Below, piece after piece: positions 16,794 to 26,344 of a stretch of 64,000 nucleotides of DNA. The notes beneath the pieces were generated by a model. It did no database searches. It worked only from the letters and a program-made list of their open reading frames with translations, and was not told the DNA's origin. Made by a program: the position numbers and the translations under genes. Source of the DNA: Archaeoglobus veneficus SNP6 (GTDB lineage: Archaea; Halobacteriota; Archaeoglobi; Archaeoglobales; Archaeoglobaceae); contig NC_015320.1 of NCBI RefSeq assembly GCF_000194625.1, positions 124,001 through 188,000 of the forward strand, in the 5' to 3' direction. How positions within the stretch are numbered: position 1 is the stretch's first letter; each line of letters opens with the position of its first letter.

Positions 16794-17126
16794 GTGCACG
16801 AGATGAGTTTTGCTCAGGCAATTGTTGAGAACGTTTTGAAACTTGCCGAGGAGAAGGGCGCAAAAAAAGTGTCGAAAGTTCTCGTGGAAATGGGCGAACT
16901 CCTGCTTATAAATCCGGAACAGCTCGAGTTCTGCTTTCAGGTTGCAAGCAGTGGGACAATTGCTGAAGGAGCTGTCCTCGAACTCGAATTCATCAAACCT
17001 CACATCGAGTGTCTGCTCTGCGGGAAAAGATACGACGAACCCATCGCAATCTGCGAATGTGGAGGGATTATTAAAGTTGAAGGCGGTAAGGATATGGTGA
17101 TTCGGAAAATAGAGATGGAAGTGTGA
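16794..17126 (+). CDS. hypA: Hydrogenase nickel-insertion protein HypA
   Basis: HypA binds nickel and, with HypB, inserts it into the hydrogenase large subunit. The GTG start gives the N-terminal MHE whose histidine is the nickel ligand. Of the structural zinc site the first CxxC (ECLLCG) is standard, but the second appears as CEC (ICECGG), one residue shorter than the usual CxxC. Length (110) is normal. First gene of hypABCD; hypB begins 12 bases after the stop. Confidence 0.94.
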   Translation: MHEMSFAQAIVENVLKLAEEKGAKKVSKVLVEMGELLLINPEQLEFCFQVASSGTIAEGAVLELEFIKPHIECLLCGKRYDEPIAICECGGIIKVEGGKDMVIRKIEMEV

Positions 17127-17138
17127 GGGGGTGTGACC

Positions 17139-17801
17139 ATGCACAGGATTGAAGTTGATGCTGAAATTGACGTACTTGAGGCAAACAGAAGACTTGCCGC
17201 AGAAAATCGGGAATTCCTGAAAAAGCATGGCATTACAGCCATCAACATAATGGGGGCTACCGGCAGTGGAAAAACACTGCTGATCGAGAAGACTGCTGAC
17301 GCTCTTGGCGACAAGGTCAGGATGGGGGCAATTCTTGGCGATGTCGTTGGCAAGGCGGACTACGAGAGGGTTGCGAGGCACGGAGTTAAGGCGGAGATGA
17401 TAAACACGGGCAAGGAGTGCCACCTCGACGCCCATCTGATACACCATGCAATAGAGAAGTTTAATGATGTTGATCTGCTGCTCATGGAGAACGTTGGAAA
17501 CCTTATATGTCCCGTTGACTTCGATTTAGGTGAAGATTATCGAGTTGTGATGGTGAGTGTTACAGAAGGTGATGACGTTATTGAGAAGCATCCCGAGATC
17601 TTCAGGCTTGCGGACGTGATCATCATCAACAAGGTCGCTTTGGCTGAGGCGGTTGAAGCTAACGTAGACAAGATGGTGGAAGATGCGAGAAAACTCAATG
17701 CCAAGGCAAAAATTATCAAGATGGATTTAAAGAAAGACGTAGGCTTTGATGAATGGCTTGAGTGGCTTCAAGAAGTCATGAGCAAGCAGAATGGAAGGTG
17801 A
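17139..17801 (+). CDS. hypB: Hydrogenase nickel GTPase HypB
   Basis: GTPase that drives nickel delivery during NiFe hydrogenase maturation. 220 residues with a P-loop GATGSGKT, the metal-binding GKECHLDAH loop whose Cys-His pair bridges the dimer, the switch region ENVGNLICP and the guanine motif NKVA. It has neither the N-terminal nickel motif nor the histidine-rich stretch of some bacterial HypB. ATG 17139 follows GAGGGGGTG; a GTG six bases earlier is within that site. Confidence 0.95.
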   Translation: MHRIEVDAEIDVLEANRRLAAENREFLKKHGITAINIMGATGSGKTLLIEKTADALGDKVRMGAILGDVVGKADYERVARHGVKAEMINTGKECHLDAHLIHHAIEKFNDVDLLLMENVGNLICPVDFDLGEDYRVVMVSVTEGDDVIEKHPEIFRLADVIIINKVALAEAVEANVDKMVEDARKLNAKAKIIKMDLKKDVGFDEWLEWLQEVMSKQNGR

Positions 17802-17806
17802 TAACG

Positions 17807-18022
17807 ATGTGCTTGGCAATTCCTGGCAAAGTAGAGAGCGTTGAATATCCATTTGCCATAGTTGACTTCAGCGGGACAAAAAAGAAGGTAAGAATAGACC
17901 TCGTTGACGATGTAAAGCCTGGCGAGTACGTACTCGTCCACGTTGGCTTTGCAATTCAGAAAGTTGACGAGGAGGAGGCGAAAAAGCTGGAAGAAATGCT
18001 TGCAGAAATCCTCGTAGAGTGA
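17807..18022 (+). CDS. hypC: Hydrogenase maturation chaperone HypC
   Basis: 71-residue chaperone that, with HypD, carries the Fe(CN)2CO unit to the hydrogenase large subunit. It begins MCLAIPGKV, with the essential Cys2 exposed once Met is removed, and folds as a small beta barrel with a C-terminal helix. ATG 17807 is preceded by GGAAGGTGAT. An in-frame upstream start overlapping hypB is possible but would bury Cys2. Confidence 0.95.
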   Translation: MCLAIPGKVESVEYPFAIVDFSGTKKKVRIDLVDDVKPGEYVLVHVGFAIQKVDEEEAKKLEEMLAEILVE

Positions 18023-19119
18023 TGGGTATGATTTCGCTGGAGAAGGTCAAGACGGGCATAAAGGAGCTATCAGCAAAGATAAAAAAAGAGATGGAGAGTG
18101 AAGAGGAAATAAGAATAATGCATTTATGTGGGACGCATGAAGACACGATTACTCGCTACAACATACGAAGCTTGCTGCCGGAGAATCTCAAACTTCTCAG
18201 CGGACCCGGCTGCCCTGTCTGCATCATCCCCGATACGGACTTGCAGATGGTCTTTCACCTCATCCAGAACGCAAACATAATCTTCACAACCTTCGGCGAC
18301 ATGGCGAGAGTACCGTTTGAGGGCAAATCTCTGTTTTACTACAGGTCGAAGGGTCATGACATAAGAATCGTTTACAGCGTTTTCGATGCGGTTGAAATCG
18401 CAAAGCAGAGCGATAAGCCCGTAGTGCACTTCGGAATTGGCTTCGAAACGACGATGCCTTCAACCGCTCTGGCCATCCTCGATGGCGTTGAGAACTTCCA
18501 CGTCTTCTCCTCGCACCGATTTTTCATTCCTGCCATGGAGCATCTGCTTTCTCTCGGCGAAGCGAGGATTAACGGCTTCATAAACCCAGGGCACGTTTCC
18601 ACTATAGTCGGCGTTAAGGCTTACGAGCCAATAAAGGAGAAGTATGGAGTTCCACAGATAATTGCCGGATTCGAGCCTTACGATGTCATGCTTGCCGTTT
18701 ACAACCTCGTTAAGGCCATAAAGAATGGAGAGAAAGCTCTACTCAACGAGTACACGAGGGCCGTGAAATACGAGGGCAATGTAAAGGCTCAGCAAGTCAT
18801 GGACGAGGTTTTCGACAGGCACGACTGGGAGTGGAGAGGTCTTGGAGTTGTGCCAGCGTCGGGAGGAGCGATACGAAAGAAGTACGAGGATTACGATGCG
18901 ATGAAGGTGTTTGAAGATGTCTTTAAGGATTTCGAGCCGAAAGAGGATGCAAGAAAGAGGGCATGCAGGTGTGGGGAGGTGTTGAGGGGGTTAATCACAC
19001 CATCCGACTGCCCGCTCTTCATGAAGGCCTGCACACCCAAGGACCCTATAGGGCCGTGCATGGTCAGCTTCGAAGGCACATGTAACATCTGGGCCAAGTA
19101 CGGTGGATACAAAATTTAG
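18022..19119 (+). CDS. hypD: Hydrogenase maturation protein HypD
   Basis: Scaffold Fe-S protein on which the Fe(CN)2CO group is assembled with HypC and HypE. Motifs visible: MHLCGTHEDT (iron-binding cysteine and histidine), GPGCPVCI, GFETT, INPGHVS, and the C-terminal cysteine cluster for the [4Fe-4S] centre (CRCGEVLRG, then CPLFMKAC and a later cysteine). 365 residues, normal. ATG 18022 overlaps the hypC TGA; ATG 18028 is an alternative. Last gene of the hypABCD unit. Confidence 0.95.
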   Translation: MGMISLEKVKTGIKELSAKIKKEMESEEEIRIMHLCGTHEDTITRYNIRSLLPENLKLLSGPGCPVCIIPDTDLQMVFHLIQNANIIFTTFGDMARVPFEGKSLFYYRSKGHDIRIVYSVFDAVEIAKQSDKPVVHFGIGFETTMPSTALAILDGVENFHVFSSHRFFIPAMEHLLSLGEARINGFINPGHVSTIVGVKAYEPIKEKYGVPQIIAGFEPYDVMLAVYNLVKAIKNGEKALLNEYTRAVKYEGNVKAQQVMDEVFDRHDWEWRGLGVVPASGGAIRKKYEDYDAMKVFEDVFKDFEPKEDARKRACRCGEVLRGLITPSDCPLFMKACTPKDPIGPCMVSFEGTCNIWAKYGGYKI

Positions 19120-20791: not shown

Positions 20792-21367
20792 TTATTTCGT
20801 AAAGCCTCCGGAGATGACGACCCTCAGCGCGTCCTCAACGCTCATGTCGAGGTATATTAACTCCTCCTCGGGCACAAGGACGACGAGTCCGGACGTGGGG
20901 TTTGGAGAAGTCGGTATGAACACGTTAACGAGCTTTTTACCGGTTTTTTCGATGGCTTCATCCATTCGTGTTCCCGTCGTGAACCCTATCGCGTAGATCC
21001 CCTTTCTTGGGTACTCCACAAGCACGACACCCTTAATTCTCTCGGTTTCAGATACGAGGATTGCCTTGCTTGCCTCCTTCGCCGCCGAATAAATTGTCCT
21101 CACTACGGGAATCTTCCTCAGAAAGTTCTCCGTTGCCTCGATTACCTTGTTACCTATCGCAAACCTCCCCAGTGCCCCGAGAGCAAATATCAGAGCTACG
21201 AGCGCTATCCAGCTTAGCCCCGGGAAGTAGAACCCAATTATCTTCAGGAGTGCAGGTTTCAGCAGGTTGTCCACGAACGTAAAAGTCCAGTAGACCACGT
21301 ACACAGTCGCGAGCAGTGGTATGAGTATCAGGAGTCCCGCCAGGAACGTATTTCGTAACTCGGACAT
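20792..21367 (-). CDS. DUF502 family membrane protein
   Basis: 191 residues with two N-terminal membrane helices (TFLAGLLILIPLLATVYVVY and WIALVALIFALGALGRFAI) and a soluble C-terminal domain containing IPVVRTIYSAAKEASKAI, GVVLVEYPRKG and FIPTSPNPTSGLVVLVP, all typical of DUF502. Function unknown; family members are widespread in bacteria and archaea. ATG 21367, no strong ribosome site seen. Convergent with rdgB. Confidence 0.88.
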   Translation of the reverse strand: MSELRNTFLAGLLILIPLLATVYVVYWTFTFVDNLLKPALLKIIGFYFPGLSWIALVALIFALGALGRFAIGNKVIEATENFLRKIPVVRTIYSAAKEASKAILVSETERIKGVVLVEYPRKGIYAIGFTTGTRMDEAIEKTGKKLVNVFIPTSPNPTSGLVVLVPEEELIYLDMSVEDALRVVISGGFTK

Positions 21368-21792: not shown

Positions 21793-22707
21793 ATGTATAG
21801 GGTGTCAGTAAATTTAGTGAAATTGTCGGCGACGCCTGCAACAATAATATATCCATACCCTTTTCTTGCTTTTCTTGTTTTTTCTCTTTCGGGAACGCTC
21901 AGTCTAATTTCCTTAATCAAGGCAATTATCATCTCATTCCTCTTTTACGCTGGGATAAATCTGTGGAACCATGTAAATGACGTAAAAGAGGACGTCCTCG
22001 CTGGTAAGAAAAACATTTTAACAGAAAACGAGAATGTCAGAATGGGGGCTGCAGCTCTTTCAGCTTTTCTCTACGTAATTTCCTTTATACTCTCAGCCTA
22101 TTGGATAATTGACAAAAAAGGTATCATAGCCTTTACCGGAGCTGCCATTGCCACATGGATATACTCTGACAGGATGGTACTCGGAAAGATGATAAGGAGG
22201 TGGAAAGACTACTATGTTACTGAAGTCCTTGCCTACATTATTTCTGCTCCGTCAATAACGCTGTTATTATGGACTCTCTTCGCACCCATATCGCCAAAGG
22301 CGTTTGCCCTTTCTGTAATTATGACCCTATTTTTACTTCCCGGAGCATTTCTTAAGGATATAAAAGATATAAGCAGTGACAGACTTGCTGGCTTGAAGAC
22401 CCTTGGTGTAGTCTTCTCTCCCCAGACGCTGTTGAAGGTTTCTTTGCTTTTACTGAGTTTTTACTACCTATCTATTTTAGTATTTTCTATCACTGGCGTA
22501 TTTCCATCTTTCTGTGCATTCTCACTTCTTTCCTTTCTTGGATTAATTTATACAATAAAATATTTCCTGAATAATAAATGGGCCATATCTCCTAAATCAG
22601 TAAAGCCAATTAAAATTATGGTCTATTCTAACCTGATATCTCTTTTAATTCTTATTGTAGCAGGTATTACTCAAACTCTACCATTGCCGAGGTTCCACCT
22701 AAATTAG
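21793..22707 (+). CDS. UbiA-family prenyltransferase
   Basis: 304 residues, almost entirely membrane-embedded (about nine helices). The first aspartate-rich motif is present as NLWNHVNDVKEDVLAGKKN and the second as FLKDIKDISSDRLAGLKTL, which bind the Mg-diphosphate of the polyprenyl donor. The exact acceptor is not clear: menaquinone precursor, geranylgeranylglyceryl phosphate or a porphyrin are all possible. The futalosine genes mqnA and mqnC in this window make a role in menaquinone synthesis attractive but unproved. The gene is unusually AT-rich compared with its neighbours, as is the overlapping convergent FIST gene, so this block may have a different history. Confidence 0.85.
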   Translation: MYRVSVNLVKLSATPATIIYPYPFLAFLVFSLSGTLSLISLIKAIIISFLFYAGINLWNHVNDVKEDVLAGKKNILTENENVRMGAAALSAFLYVISFILSAYWIIDKKGIIAFTGAAIATWIYSDRMVLGKMIRRWKDYYVTEVLAYIISAPSITLLLWTLFAPISPKAFALSVIMTLFLLPGAFLKDIKDISSDRLAGLKTLGVVFSPQTLLKVSLLLLSFYYLSILVFSITGVFPSFCAFSLLSFLGLIYTIKYFLNNKWAISPKSVKPIKIMVYSNLISLLILIVAGITQTLPLPRFHLN

Positions 22708-24019
22708 CAAAAATACTTTTGTGTACTTCGCTTAGATATTTTTTATCCGGCACTGGTATATAAGCCGAGGGAAAAGAAGAGAAAATTCCAAAATATTTAT
22801 TACTTTTTTCCCTAACAACATCTAAGAATTTATGAATGTTTCCACCGAAACTCATTATAGCATTTTGATCAACAACATAAAAGTCAAAGCCCTTAAGTTT
22901 TTTCTTTTCAAATATTTCCGCAAATGCTTTTACCCCTCCTCTAAATACTTCTCCACCGAATATTACTTCATCATAAAAATTATCAACATTAAAAAGTGAG
23001 GGATATATATTAAGAGGATAGTTAAATAAGCCCAACCCTGCACTTCCGTAGGTTTCCTTACTTATAAACGATAAACCATATGGTGTTGCCATTTGCAACT
23101 TACCGCTCTCAACTTTTTTGAGAAATTCATCTTGACTAACGTCTTCAAATCCACTCCTCTTCATTTTCAAAAAAGCAACGGGTTTCAAGCCGTTTATCTC
23201 ACCGATTGCCAGTCCCCCTTTAACGACTTTAACTTCTTCCACTCCAGCAAAATAATTCTTAATTACTTCAAAGGTTTCCTCATAACTGTTCCCCCTCTCG
23301 GGAAATATATCATGGAAAAGTACGTTAGCTTTTCCCTTAAAACACATTGCCGCTGATCCGAAACCCAATTCATTATAATCTGCCAAAATAAGAGGTGTAT
23401 ATGAAGTAGCCTCAAGGGGCATAAGGTTCAGACCCAGTATAGGTATGGAGCCGCCTGTTTTTTCGGCCACTATCTTTAGCACATCGTTGATCGGAAAAAC
23501 GAACTTAGATCTTAGATAATCAGAAAATTCTTTAAGAACATCCTCTTTTTCCTTAACACTTTCCCCTCTAATGTATCTTCGGTAGTAAACCCTATCTTTC
23601 AAAAAGTATTTCAAAAATCCAAACTTACTTGGAAAATAGAGGGCTGGAAACATCAAAAGAATGGCATCCCATCCCTTTCCAATCTTTTCTCCGAGCTTCT
23701 CTGCCGTTCTGGTTGCAGTCTTATCTTTAGCCCAGAAAACCTCCACCTTTCCATCAAATTCACCGAGAAGGGCAGCAACCCCTCTCATCCAAATTTCATC
23801 TTTGACGAGGTAGCCCTCAACAGTGCAGCCGAGCATCTTCGCATCGGGAAACTTCTTTTTGAGCAATTGGATAAAAAGCTTGTAGTTTTTCCAGACCCCT
23901 TCAGTTAAAAAGAGGAGGAGAAAATTCGGTTCGAAGTCTATCTGCTCAAGCTGCTTTGCAATCTGCCTGTAAGCTTCCTTAGCATCGTTGGACGGAGAAT
24001 AAACAACTTCAGCCCTCAT
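22667..24019 (-). CDS. FIST-domain sensory protein
   Basis: 450 residues. The N-terminal half matches the FIST pattern of a ligand-sensing domain (ILLMFPALYFPSKFG; SIPILGLNLMPLEA; GFGSAAMCFKGKANVLFHDI) and the rest resembles the FIST C-terminal region (GLKPVAFLKMK; ATPYGLSFISKET; FGGEVFRGGVKAFAEIF). FIST domains are thought to sense small molecules such as amino acids in signal transduction. ATG 24019 overlaps the end of the Roadblock-like gene by 11 bases; no Shine-Dalgarno, consistent with coupling. Third gene of a KaiC/Roadblock/FIST operon. Its 3' end overlaps the convergent UbiA gene by 41 bases. Confidence 0.78.
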   Translation of the reverse strand: MRAEVVYSPSNDAKEAYRQIAKQLEQIDFEPNFLLLFLTEGVWKNYKLFIQLLKKKFPDAKMLGCTVEGYLVKDEIWMRGVAALLGEFDGKVEVFWAKDKTATRTAEKLGEKIGKGWDAILLMFPALYFPSKFGFLKYFLKDRVYYRRYIRGESVKEKEDVLKEFSDYLRSKFVFPINDVLKIVAEKTGGSIPILGLNLMPLEATSYTPLILADYNELGFGSAAMCFKGKANVLFHDIFPERGNSYEETFEVIKNYFAGVEEVKVVKGGLAIGEINGLKPVAFLKMKRSGFEDVSQDEFLKKVESGKLQMATPYGLSFISKETYGSAGLGLFNYPLNIYPSLFNVDNFYDEVIFGGEVFRGGVKAFAEIFEKKKLKGFDFYVVDQNAIMSFGGNIHKFLDVVREKSNKYFGIFSSFPSAYIPVPDKKYLSEVHKSIFANLGGTSAMVEFE

Positions 24020-24371
24020 AACCAACAAGAACGCCAAGCTGTTTTTTGACCGACATCACGTCAACCTCTAACTTATACATGGAAACTTCTTCGCTGGCCA
24101 TTATGCTCAGAACGAGGGTTCTGGAAACAGGATACATGTGTATTCTCACGTCTCCAAACCTGAAACTCGCTTCGCTCAGGTTGCGGTTAAATATCTGGTA
24201 GAGCATTTCCTTTATCTGCCCCTCCAGCCAGTAAAGTGTTCCTGCGATTTCTCGTTTCGGCGCATTTATCTTTATAAAGACGGGGACGCCATCTATCCTG
24301 TACAGAGCCACCATTTTTATTCCAGGATCAGAATATATTGGAGAAAGGAGTAACGATATTCTGGAGATCAT
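24009..24371 (-). CDS. Roadblock/LC7-like small protein
   Basis: 120 residues with the alternating strand-helix-strand pattern of Roadblock/LC7 proteins: MVALYRIDGVPVFIKI, a long helix (AGTLYWLEGQIKEMLYQIF), then paired strands RIHMYPVSRTLVLSIMAS and a C-terminal helix. Prokaryotic members regulate Ras-like GTPases (MglB type) or act as dimer platforms. No small GTPase gene lies adjacent; the neighbour is a KaiC-like ATPase, which may be the partner. The family call is by fold pattern only. Confidence 0.5.
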   Translation of the reverse strand: MISRISLLLSPIYSDPGIKMVALYRIDGVPVFIKINAPKREIAGTLYWLEGQIKEMLYQIFNRNLSEASFRFGDVRIHMYPVSRTLVLSIMASEEVSMYKLEVDVMSVKKQLGVLVGYEG

Positions 24372-24380
24372 CCTGCACCC

Positions 24381-25232
24381 TCAGGCGTACTTTCTCAGAA
24401 TCCCGAGTATTACTTCCCTCACTCCACTCGCTCTGCTTTCCGCAAGCCTCTGGAGCTTCTTGAGCAAATCCCTGTCTATATCTTCCTTTCTCAAGCCAGC
24501 CTCCCTGATGAGCTGGTCAAGGTTAACTTCCTCCCGCATGGACTCAACGAATTCCCATCCCTCGACGACTATTCCAACTCCTTCGAGTATCCTGTACGGG
24601 AATACTCCTTCCGCGTGCCAGGAGCCGCGGTGCTTTATAATGCGTAGCGTGCGGTTGAATGCTTCGCCGTAGCCGTTATTCTTCAGGTGTATCACACTGT
24701 CACCCAGAAACAGCGGTATGACCACAGAGGGTTCACTCATATTTCCGTTAAGGGGTTCTTCGAGAGTTATTACGGCGGTTCCAATCTCCCTCAACTTGGA
24801 GAAGAACCAGTTAACATCGTTTCGCATGTCATAGCTCAGAGAGGAGATTAGAGGGGTAAACGAGTCTATCGCTATCCTCGTTGTTTCTCCCGCTTCAGCC
24901 GTTATAAAGCCAAGCAGGTCGTTGTTTATGTACGTGATGTTTTCAGCGTAAAACTTGTCTATGGCGAGCATGCCGCTGTTAACGTAGTCTTCGATGTCGT
25001 CCCATCCCATTGCGTCGGCTGTATCAACAACGTCCTTAACGTCCATGTCGAATGACACGAATATGCCTTTCTCACCTCTTTCAAGCCCCTTAAGGATAAA
25101 CTGGAGCGCAAATATTGTTTTTCCAGTTCCTGTGGAACCAAGGACTATATTAGCAGTATTCGAACGGTAACCTGAACCGAGAAGTTCATCGAGGCCATAA
25201 ATACCAGTCTCGACTCTCATCTCCATCCTCAT
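24381..25232 (-). CDS. KaiC-like RecA-superfamily ATPase
   Basis: 283 residues. The start VETGIYGLDELLGSGYRSNT followed by Walker A GSTGTGKT (residues 32-39) and a Walker B aspartate in IAIDSFTPL is the classic archaeal KaiC-like layout with a single ATPase domain. The C-terminal 80 residues are helical and unlike KaiC, probably for partner binding. Such proteins act as signal-transducing ATPases or regulators; a role here in passing a FIST signal is inference. ATG 25232 is preceded by GCGGTGATTACA. Gap of nine bases to the Roadblock-like gene. Confidence 0.82.
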   Translation of the reverse strand: MRMEMRVETGIYGLDELLGSGYRSNTANIVLGSTGTGKTIFALQFILKGLERGEKGIFVSFDMDVKDVVDTADAMGWDDIEDYVNSGMLAIDKFYAENITYINNDLLGFITAEAGETTRIAIDSFTPLISSLSYDMRNDVNWFFSKLREIGTAVITLEEPLNGNMSEPSVVIPLFLGDSVIHLKNNGYGEAFNRTLRIIKHRGSWHAEGVFPYRILEGVGIVVEGWEFVESMREEVNLDQLIREAGLRKEDIDRDLLKKLQRLAESRASGVREVILGILRKYA

Positions 25233-25357
25233 TGTAATCACCGCAATAGTAGCATTGCGTTTCCTTTATAAATTTTTTCCGAATTCAACACAGAATAGCT
25301 TAAAATTTTAATAAAGTCCTACATTCAAAAAATTAGAAATTATTATTATAATTTAAA

Positions 25358-26344
25358 CTATTTATCCTCTATACCCCTCTCGGTGACTTTAAAAACAGCT
25401 TCACCTTCAGGCAGGTGTGGCGAGTCGATGAGCCTCGCTACTCTCAGCTCTCCCTTGCTCTTCCTCAGGTAGATGCGAAACGTAGCTGTGTGCGCAACTA
25501 TATGCCCTCCTACAGGTTTCGTCGGGTCGCCAAAGAATGTGTCGGGCTTCGCCTGAACCTGATTTGTGACGACGATTGCTGCATTGAAGATTTCTCCGAA
25601 CCTCATTAAGTCGTGCAGGTGCTTGTTCAGCTTCTGCTGCCTGTCGGCAAGCGTTCCCCTACCAACGTATTCAGCTCTGAAGTGGGCCATAAGCGAGTCC
25701 ACGATGAGGAGCTTTACCTGCTTTCCTTCCTTTTTGAGTTTGTTCGCAAGCTCTTTGGCATTATCAACGAGGAGCATCTGGTGATTTGAGTTGTAAGCCT
25801 GGGCGACATATATGTTCCTCAGCACCTCTTCTGGATCGAGTCCTTTTGCCTCGGCCATCTGTATTATTCTCTCCGGCCTGAAGGTATTTTCGGTATCTAT
25901 CACGATTACAGAACCTTCAAGCCCTCCAAGATCGCGGGGAAGCTGGACGTTTACGGCAAGTTGATGGCATATCTGCGTTTTACCACTTCCAAACTCACCA
26001 AAGAGTTCCGTTATGGACTGTGTTTCCACACCACCACCAAGCAACTCATCGAGAGCCTTACTCCCGGTCGTAATCTTGCCTATGCGCCTTCTGCGCTCGA
26101 GTACCTTATCACCACTCTCAAACCCGCCAACGTCTGCAAGCTTTCTGGCAGCGGATATTATTTTTGCGGCCGTCGATTCGCCGATTTCTGCAGCAGCACT
26201 GAGTTCAGATGGGGAGGCTACGGCAATCGCCTCTATAGTTGAGAAACCTGCCTCTCTAAGTTTTTCAGCTATTGCAGGACCGACGTTGGGCAAATCTTCA
26301 AGATCGATAACCTTCATGCTACCTGATTCGCTATCCTCACCCAT
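25358..26344 (-). CDS. radA: DNA repair recombinase RadA
   Basis: Archaeal Rad51/RecA orthologue that polymerises on single-stranded DNA and catalyses strand exchange. 328 residues: an N-terminal helix-hairpin-helix domain (about 1-65, [17 protein letters not shown]), Walker A GEFGSGKT at 116-123, Walker B LLIVDSL, and the L2 region [11 protein letters not shown]. Full length. CAGGGTGGAATGA precedes the ATG. Divergent from cbiB with shared promoter DNA between. Confidence 0.96.

Follow-up and report, generated by a model that had tools for sequence, protein, structure and literature searches.

A conserved two-pair module of KaiC-like, Roadblock-like, FIST, and UbiA-type genes in Archaeoglobus veneficus and related archaea, with a possible role in the regulation of a prenyl lipid

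Roadblock proteins are well known as regulators of small GTPases, among them MglB, the Roadblock GTPase-activating protein of the small GTPase MglA, and FIST domains have been described as sensory, for example in NosP. In the MglA/MglB systems of Myxococcus and Thermus and in the Ragulator/Rag system, a Roadblock protein is paired with a P-loop NTPase; cyanobacterial KaiC and the archaellum protein ArlH contain the KaiC ATPase domain; NosP and FBXO22 share the FIST fold; and ChlG (with the geranylgeranyl reductase ChlP), DGGGP synthase, and MenA are prenyltransferases of the UbiA superfamily. KaiC-like ATPases have been proposed as hubs of archaeal signal transduction (Makarova, Galperin, Koonin 2017, mBio 8:e01959-17; via PMC5847659), and such hubs resemble the locus described here in linking a single-domain KaiC-like ATPase to likely input and adaptor domains. 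This locus lies in a stretch of 64,000 nucleotides of the Archaeoglobus veneficus SNP6 genome (NC_015320.1, positions 124,001 to 188,000; hereafter the window) and comprises genes for a KaiC-like ATPase, a Roadblock/LC7-like protein (RBL), a FIST-family protein, and a UbiA-type prenyltransferase. Our literature search, whose coverage was incomplete and did not include Makarova 2017, retrieved no paper that joins KaiC with FIST or UbiA or that describes the four as a set.

Three of the genes follow one another in the same orientation on the minus strand. The KaiC-like ATPase (24381–25232; 283 residues) is followed, after a gap of nine bases (24372–24380), by RBL (24009–24371; 120 residues), which in turn overlaps the FIST gene (22667–24019; 450 residues) by 11 bases (24009–24019). 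An earlier note on this DNA had described exactly this spacing, which the open reading frame coordinates reproduce, as well as the three family assignments, on which Pfam, family profiles, and structure predictions agree. Its three genes thus stood, but the extent that it gave to the unit, 22667–25232, did not, because it missed a gene with the same phyletic pattern: on the plus strand, a UbiA-superfamily membrane prenyltransferase (21793–22707; 304 residues) converges on the FIST gene, and the 3′ ends of the two overlap by 41 bases (22667–22707). The KaiC-like frame probably starts at the ATG at 25232, with a further open GTG upstream at 25241. The putative start of FIST, the ATG at 24019, corresponds to a methionine conserved without exception across 20 homologues, and a TTG at 24037 is open too.

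The four genes are inherited, relocated, and lost together as a module of two pairs. We screened 393 genomes of the phylum for RBL and FIST (threshold E < 1e-20, where E is the expectation value) and 305 of these for UbiA. RBL and FIST were both present in 53 of the 393 genomes and both missing from 339; the only genome with RBL alone had it at a contig end. UbiA never occurred without FIST (0/305). The reverse was found in three genomes (G001, G005, and G280), all with an incomplete FIST, and in G001 and G005 the contig ends there. The remaining FIST genomes listed without UbiA apparently fall outside the 305-genome sample, and UbiA was seen directly in G336, G363, and G388. Ten Archaeoglobaceae genomes without RBL and FIST were also devoid of the module UbiA, and nine of these ten, checked for KaiC, had remote paralogues only or none at the threshold. 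One genome (G027), whose contig stops inside KaiC, was uninformative. Fisher’s test gave 3e-65 for the co-occurrence, a value that is no true probability because shared ancestry is ignored. The distances among the four proteins were correlated (Spearman, 0.58–0.86), which fits vertical co-inheritance and carries little weight without a comparison with unrelated genes.

The FIST alignment was too poorly conserved for a pattern scan of the collection, and KaiC was used as the query instead. This gave 55 named loci, in 52 of which RBL directly follows KaiC on the same strand; the other three loci (L068, L094, and L111, the last of which is the least clear case) are situated close to or at the end of a contig. 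The KaiC hosts were Archaeoglobus, Geoglobus, other Archaeoglobi including JdFR-21 and JdFR-42, Methanoperedenaceae, other anaerobic methanotrophic archaea (ANME) of the ANME-2 type, a GoM-Arc1-type genome, and Methanonatronarchaeia, a class to which Methanohalarchaeum belongs. The class name Methanonatronarchaeia was taken from PMC5852551. All four genes were found in the Archaeoglobi, the Methanoperedenaceae, the other ANME-2/GoM-Arc1 genomes, and the Methanonatronarchaeia. In nearly all homologous loci covered by the contig, FIST is followed by UbiA in the opposite orientation. The 37 FIST/UbiA pairs that could be measured were all convergent, 33 of them with a 3′-end overlap of 4–50 bases. 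The flanking genes vary by lineage (RadA, CbiB, and ArgS in Archaeoglobaceae, unrelated genes elsewhere) and the four genes stay. Since the arrangement recurs in all relatives with a contig covering the locus, save where it is split two and two, it is not due to chance. The earlier note had staked its proposal on a conserved neighborhood, and such a neighborhood is what these data show.

The broken loci are particularly informative. In one genome (G161), KaiC–RBL is located beside RadA at 1.707 Mb and FIST–UbiA at 0.436 Mb, about 1.27 Mb apart; in Methanoperedens nitroreducens, FIST–UbiA is also located apart from KaiC–RBL; and in ANME-2 loci, FIST–UbiA is inverted relative to KaiC–RBL. Because these splits and inversions preserve both pairs, we conclude that KaiC pairs with RBL, that FIST pairs with UbiA, and that the pairs are kept together. 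Within the screened genomes, none was found that has one pair and verifiably lacks the other. Synteny that outlives the turnover of the flanks, together with broken loci that keep both pairs, is stronger evidence than the genome counts.

The KaiC-like protein matched PF06745 with E = 5e-40 (137.7 bits against a cut-off of 26.6), and its nearest matches in the PDB were KaiC (E down to 5e-42), with similarity to the KaiC CI domain. It has one domain and thus not the two-domain architecture of the clock protein. The earlier note had called it active-looking. In favor of this description, the Walker A motif GxxGxGKT and the Walker B residue D126 are invariant among 22 homologues; less so, the acidic pair E77/E78 of KaiC CI is D-M in the window protein and, in alignments of its relatives, D or E followed mostly by M, L, or F. 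The CII phosphosites S431/T432 of cyanobacterial KaiC align with L-F in the window protein and with L-Y in relatives. From the Walker motifs, the acidic pair, and the replaced phosphosites, ATPase activity is therefore plausible and autophosphorylation at the equivalents of S431/T432 is not. In contrast to cyanobacterial KaiC and ArlH, the module protein is thus a one-domain form with replaced phosphosites, one replaced acidic residue, and other partners. In one locus (L036:5251-6178, genome G015) and in the same region of L158, KaiC is present as two open frames, broken or mis-assembled, with the rest of the module kept.

On its own, the RBL protein of the window had neither a Pfam match nor a match in a single-sequence search of the PDB. 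At the family level, PF03259 matched eight of 24 members (E up to 1, best 4e-4), the window member not among them, and the best PDB matches of the family profile were Roadblock proteins. The AlphaFold2 model has a predicted local distance difference test (pLDDT) score of 90.8 and the element order a-b-b-a-b-b-b-a, which is the Roadblock order, and in Foldseek it matched MglB, MglC, an archaeal Roadblock protein, and Ragulator with a probability of 1.00 and a template modeling (TM) score of approximately 0.7. A DG motif is invariant across the homologues. By family profile, structural model, and Foldseek comparison, the 120-residue protein is Roadblock/LC7-like, and the fold that the earlier note had singled out for checking was confirmed at the level of prediction. 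Whereas MglB acts on a small GTPase, the NTPase of the module is a RecA-fold KaiC-like ATPase, and no small GTPase is among the conserved genes. Separately, a second cluster lies near the module in Methanoperedens (L117:10352-12595) and in SCG-AAA382B04 (L144:12400-13599), consisting of a DUF7504/KaiC-like protein and a fusion of KaiC with a Ras/Arf-type small GTPase. The cluster in L117 also holds a clear PF03259 Roadblock protein, and a KaiC–GTPase fusion beside a Roadblock protein is unusual.

The FIST protein of the window scored 24.6 bits against PF08495 (cut-off 23.2), and 14 of 20 family members matched this model, the best with E = 9e-10. Its AlphaFold2 model (pLDDT 93.9) had the FIST domain of FBXO22 as the best Foldseek match (E = 3e-9) and bore a weak resemblance to cyclic-amide hydrolases and chorismatases (E = 4e-4 to 1e-2, TM score approximately 0.25); a search of PDB sequences with the FIST profile gave no match. 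Different from NosP and FBXO22, the module FIST is linked to a membrane prenyltransferase and, among its recurrent neighbors, not to a kinase or F-box partner. The families recurring beside FIST across lineages were KaiC, RBL, and UbiA only; no histidine kinase or receiver recurred among these neighbors, which were partly annotated and were not complemented by a genome-wide kinase search. One locus (L054:1589-4433, genome G198) contains two tandem FIST copies between RBL and UbiA.

The UbiA protein matched PF01040 with E = 1.5e-17 (64 bits against a cut-off of 34.2) and has approximately seven hydrophobic segments, as in a polytopic membrane protein. The NDxxxD- and DxxDxxxD-type aspartate motifs are intact: N59, D63, and D67 as well as D189, D192, and D196 are invariant in 21 homologues. 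The genome of A. veneficus SNP6 encodes three further, more typical UbiA proteins that score far better against PF01040, and module-free relatives retain theirs. The module UbiA is therefore a divergent extra copy, and we rejected it as the DGGGP synthase or MenA of this genome. From these two enzymes and ChlG it differs in being the divergent fourth UbiA of its genome, tied to KaiC, Roadblock, and FIST; with them it shares the superfamily and, at times, a location beside a reductase of the geranylgeranyl reductase family. In the model favored below, its product would be an accessory lipid, neither a core membrane lipid nor menaquinone.

This reductase-family protein, which binds flavin adenine dinucleotide by family, matched TIGR02032 with E = 3e-11 to 4e-25, under the model’s own cut-off. 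Four Archaeoglobaceae genomes from three genera (G014, G257, G244, and G015) carry its gene upstream of UbiA in the same orientation, in some cases separated from it by DUF502 or small open frames; in two loci of the Methanoperedens type (L101 and L092), the gene is located between RBL and FIST. Two distant lineages thus have a member of this family next to the module. It was rejected as an obligatory member, being present in only seven of the 393 genomes, one of which (G022) is without the module. In another Methanoperedens locus (L104:5229-12013), the RBL and FIST genes are duplicated, with a squalene-hopene-cyclase-like gene between them.

That the other three genes share their inheritance with UbiA points to an ATP-driven switch, as yet unstudied, that would govern the synthesis of a membrane lipid. 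We tentatively favor a model, which we hold at somewhat less than even confidence, in which a KaiC–RBL ATP switch, informed by FIST, controls the production of an accessory prenyl lipid via UbiA. The KaiC-like RecA-fold ATPase and RBL would form an ATP-driven conformational switch independent of the KaiC phosphosites, and the FIST protein and the membrane prenyltransferase would form the second pair. FIST may bind a small molecule that probably enters the prenyl-lipid pathway as a precursor or leaves it as a product; RBL, as a dimeric scaffold or regulator, would couple the state of FIST to whether the KaiC-like ring is in its ATP or ADP state, and the KaiC–RBL–FIST complex would regulate the UbiA enzyme through its activity or its supply. 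UbiA would attach a prenyl chain to a putative acceptor. In some lineages, the geranylgeranyl-reductase-family enzyme might then saturate this chain. We are more doubtful that a KaiC-type switch without phosphosites, joined by RBL and a FIST sensor, controls the membrane prenyltransferase directly, as a four-part ATP-driven regulator of an archaeal prenyl lipid in anaerobic methane oxidizers, Archaeoglobi, and Methanonatronarchaeia. The earlier note had envisaged a relay from FIST to KaiC, encoded in one operon and free of phosphotransfer. Both the replaced phosphosites and the neighbors of FIST agree with the latter point, and a direct relay is perhaps not the best wiring: because FIST stays with UbiA and RBL with KaiC in the split loci of G161 and Methanoperedens, it is not the sole wiring to consider.

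Archaeal KaiC-like ATPases are abundant, and for few of them has an input, a partner, or an output been established; the module offers candidates for all three, including a measurable candidate output, the prenyl lipid from the UbiA enzyme. The pairing of RBL with a RecA-fold ATPase and not a small GTPase would, if true, widen the known targets of Roadblock proteins. As the carriers include ANME-2d methane oxidizers and Archaeoglobus, a membrane lipid not yet described, or the way in which it is regulated, could be relevant to anaerobic respiration.

Several observations weigh against regulation of a prenyl lipid by the KaiC–RBL switch. The reductase is missing from most module carriers, A. 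veneficus SNP6 included, and the KaiC-like protein retains only one member of the acidic pair. Being convergent, FIST and UbiA do not share a transcript. Moreover, one deletion can take adjacent genes, so that the co-loss is weaker than the raw counts, and the independent losses are few, numbering perhaps three.

A biosynthetic role of the module would account for some of the same data. FIST, as an enzyme or a carrier of the substrate, would then make the acceptor ready for UbiA or bring it there, and KaiC–RBL would be an ATP-dependent factor for assembling or localizing the enzyme complex at the membrane. FIST accompanies UbiA and not KaiC–RBL in the split loci, some loci have terpenoid genes nearby, and the weak structural resemblance to cyclic-amide hydrolases and chorismatases points in the same direction. 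However, the match to the FIST domain of FBXO22, which to our knowledge is non-enzymatic, is clearly stronger, FIST domains such as that of NosP are regarded as sensory, and no set of catalytic residues was identified in the module FIST. We consider a biosynthetic role unlikely, though deserving of attention.

A role of KaiC, RBL, and FIST as a signaling unit with its output elsewhere (motility, transcription, or other targets), and with UbiA as a neighbor by conserved synteny only, appears improbable. The proposal of KaiC proteins as archaeal signaling hubs, as far as PMC5847659 conveys it, would suit such a unit, as would the layout, in which UbiA is on the opposite strand and the other three genes form one apparent operon. 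A putative promoter of this operon consists of a TATA-like box, TTTATAAA (25265–25272, minus strand), which is located approximately 33–40 nt before the ATG of KaiC and follows an A-rich stretch resembling a transcription factor B recognition element. Because several relatives have a similar box before KaiC, the operon appears to own a promoter; a scan for sigma-70-type promoters, which is unsuited to archaea, gave chance level only. On the other hand, the presence of UbiA follows that of FIST in all informative genomes, it remains with FIST where KaiC–RBL relocates and where the flanks turn over, and no genome with FIST, KaiC, and RBL but without the module UbiA, or the reverse, was found in the screen.

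UbiA enzymes make quinones and both Archaeoglobus and Methanoperedens use menaquinone, but a module for the synthesis or regulation of menaquinone is very improbable and was rejected on the mismatched distribution of MqnA/MqnD (PF02621), which are present in family f7, where the module is lacking, and in module-free members of genus g10 and missing from five genomes with the module (G026, G036, G045, G198, and G257). Despite the resemblance in sequence to the CI domain of KaiC, a slow KaiC–RBL ATPase that would time lipid or energy metabolism in the manner of cyanobacterial KaiC is scarcely credible for a single-domain protein that is devoid of CII phosphosites and among whose neighbors neither KaiA nor KaiB was seen.

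Outside the module, the upstream neighbor of KaiC in the window is the RadA recombinase gene (25358–26344, minus strand; TIGR02236, 550 bits). RadA, CbiB, and DUF502 were rejected as module members, since their linkage is confined to Archaeoglobaceae. The DUF502 membrane protein of the window is encoded at 20792–21367 on the minus strand; homologues occur near UbiA in several Archaeoglobaceae loci, and none were seen in other lineages. Farther away, four overlapping or adjacent genes on the plus strand (16794–19119) were assigned by eye as putative hydrogenase maturation genes for HypA, HypB, HypC, and HypD, an ordinary set.

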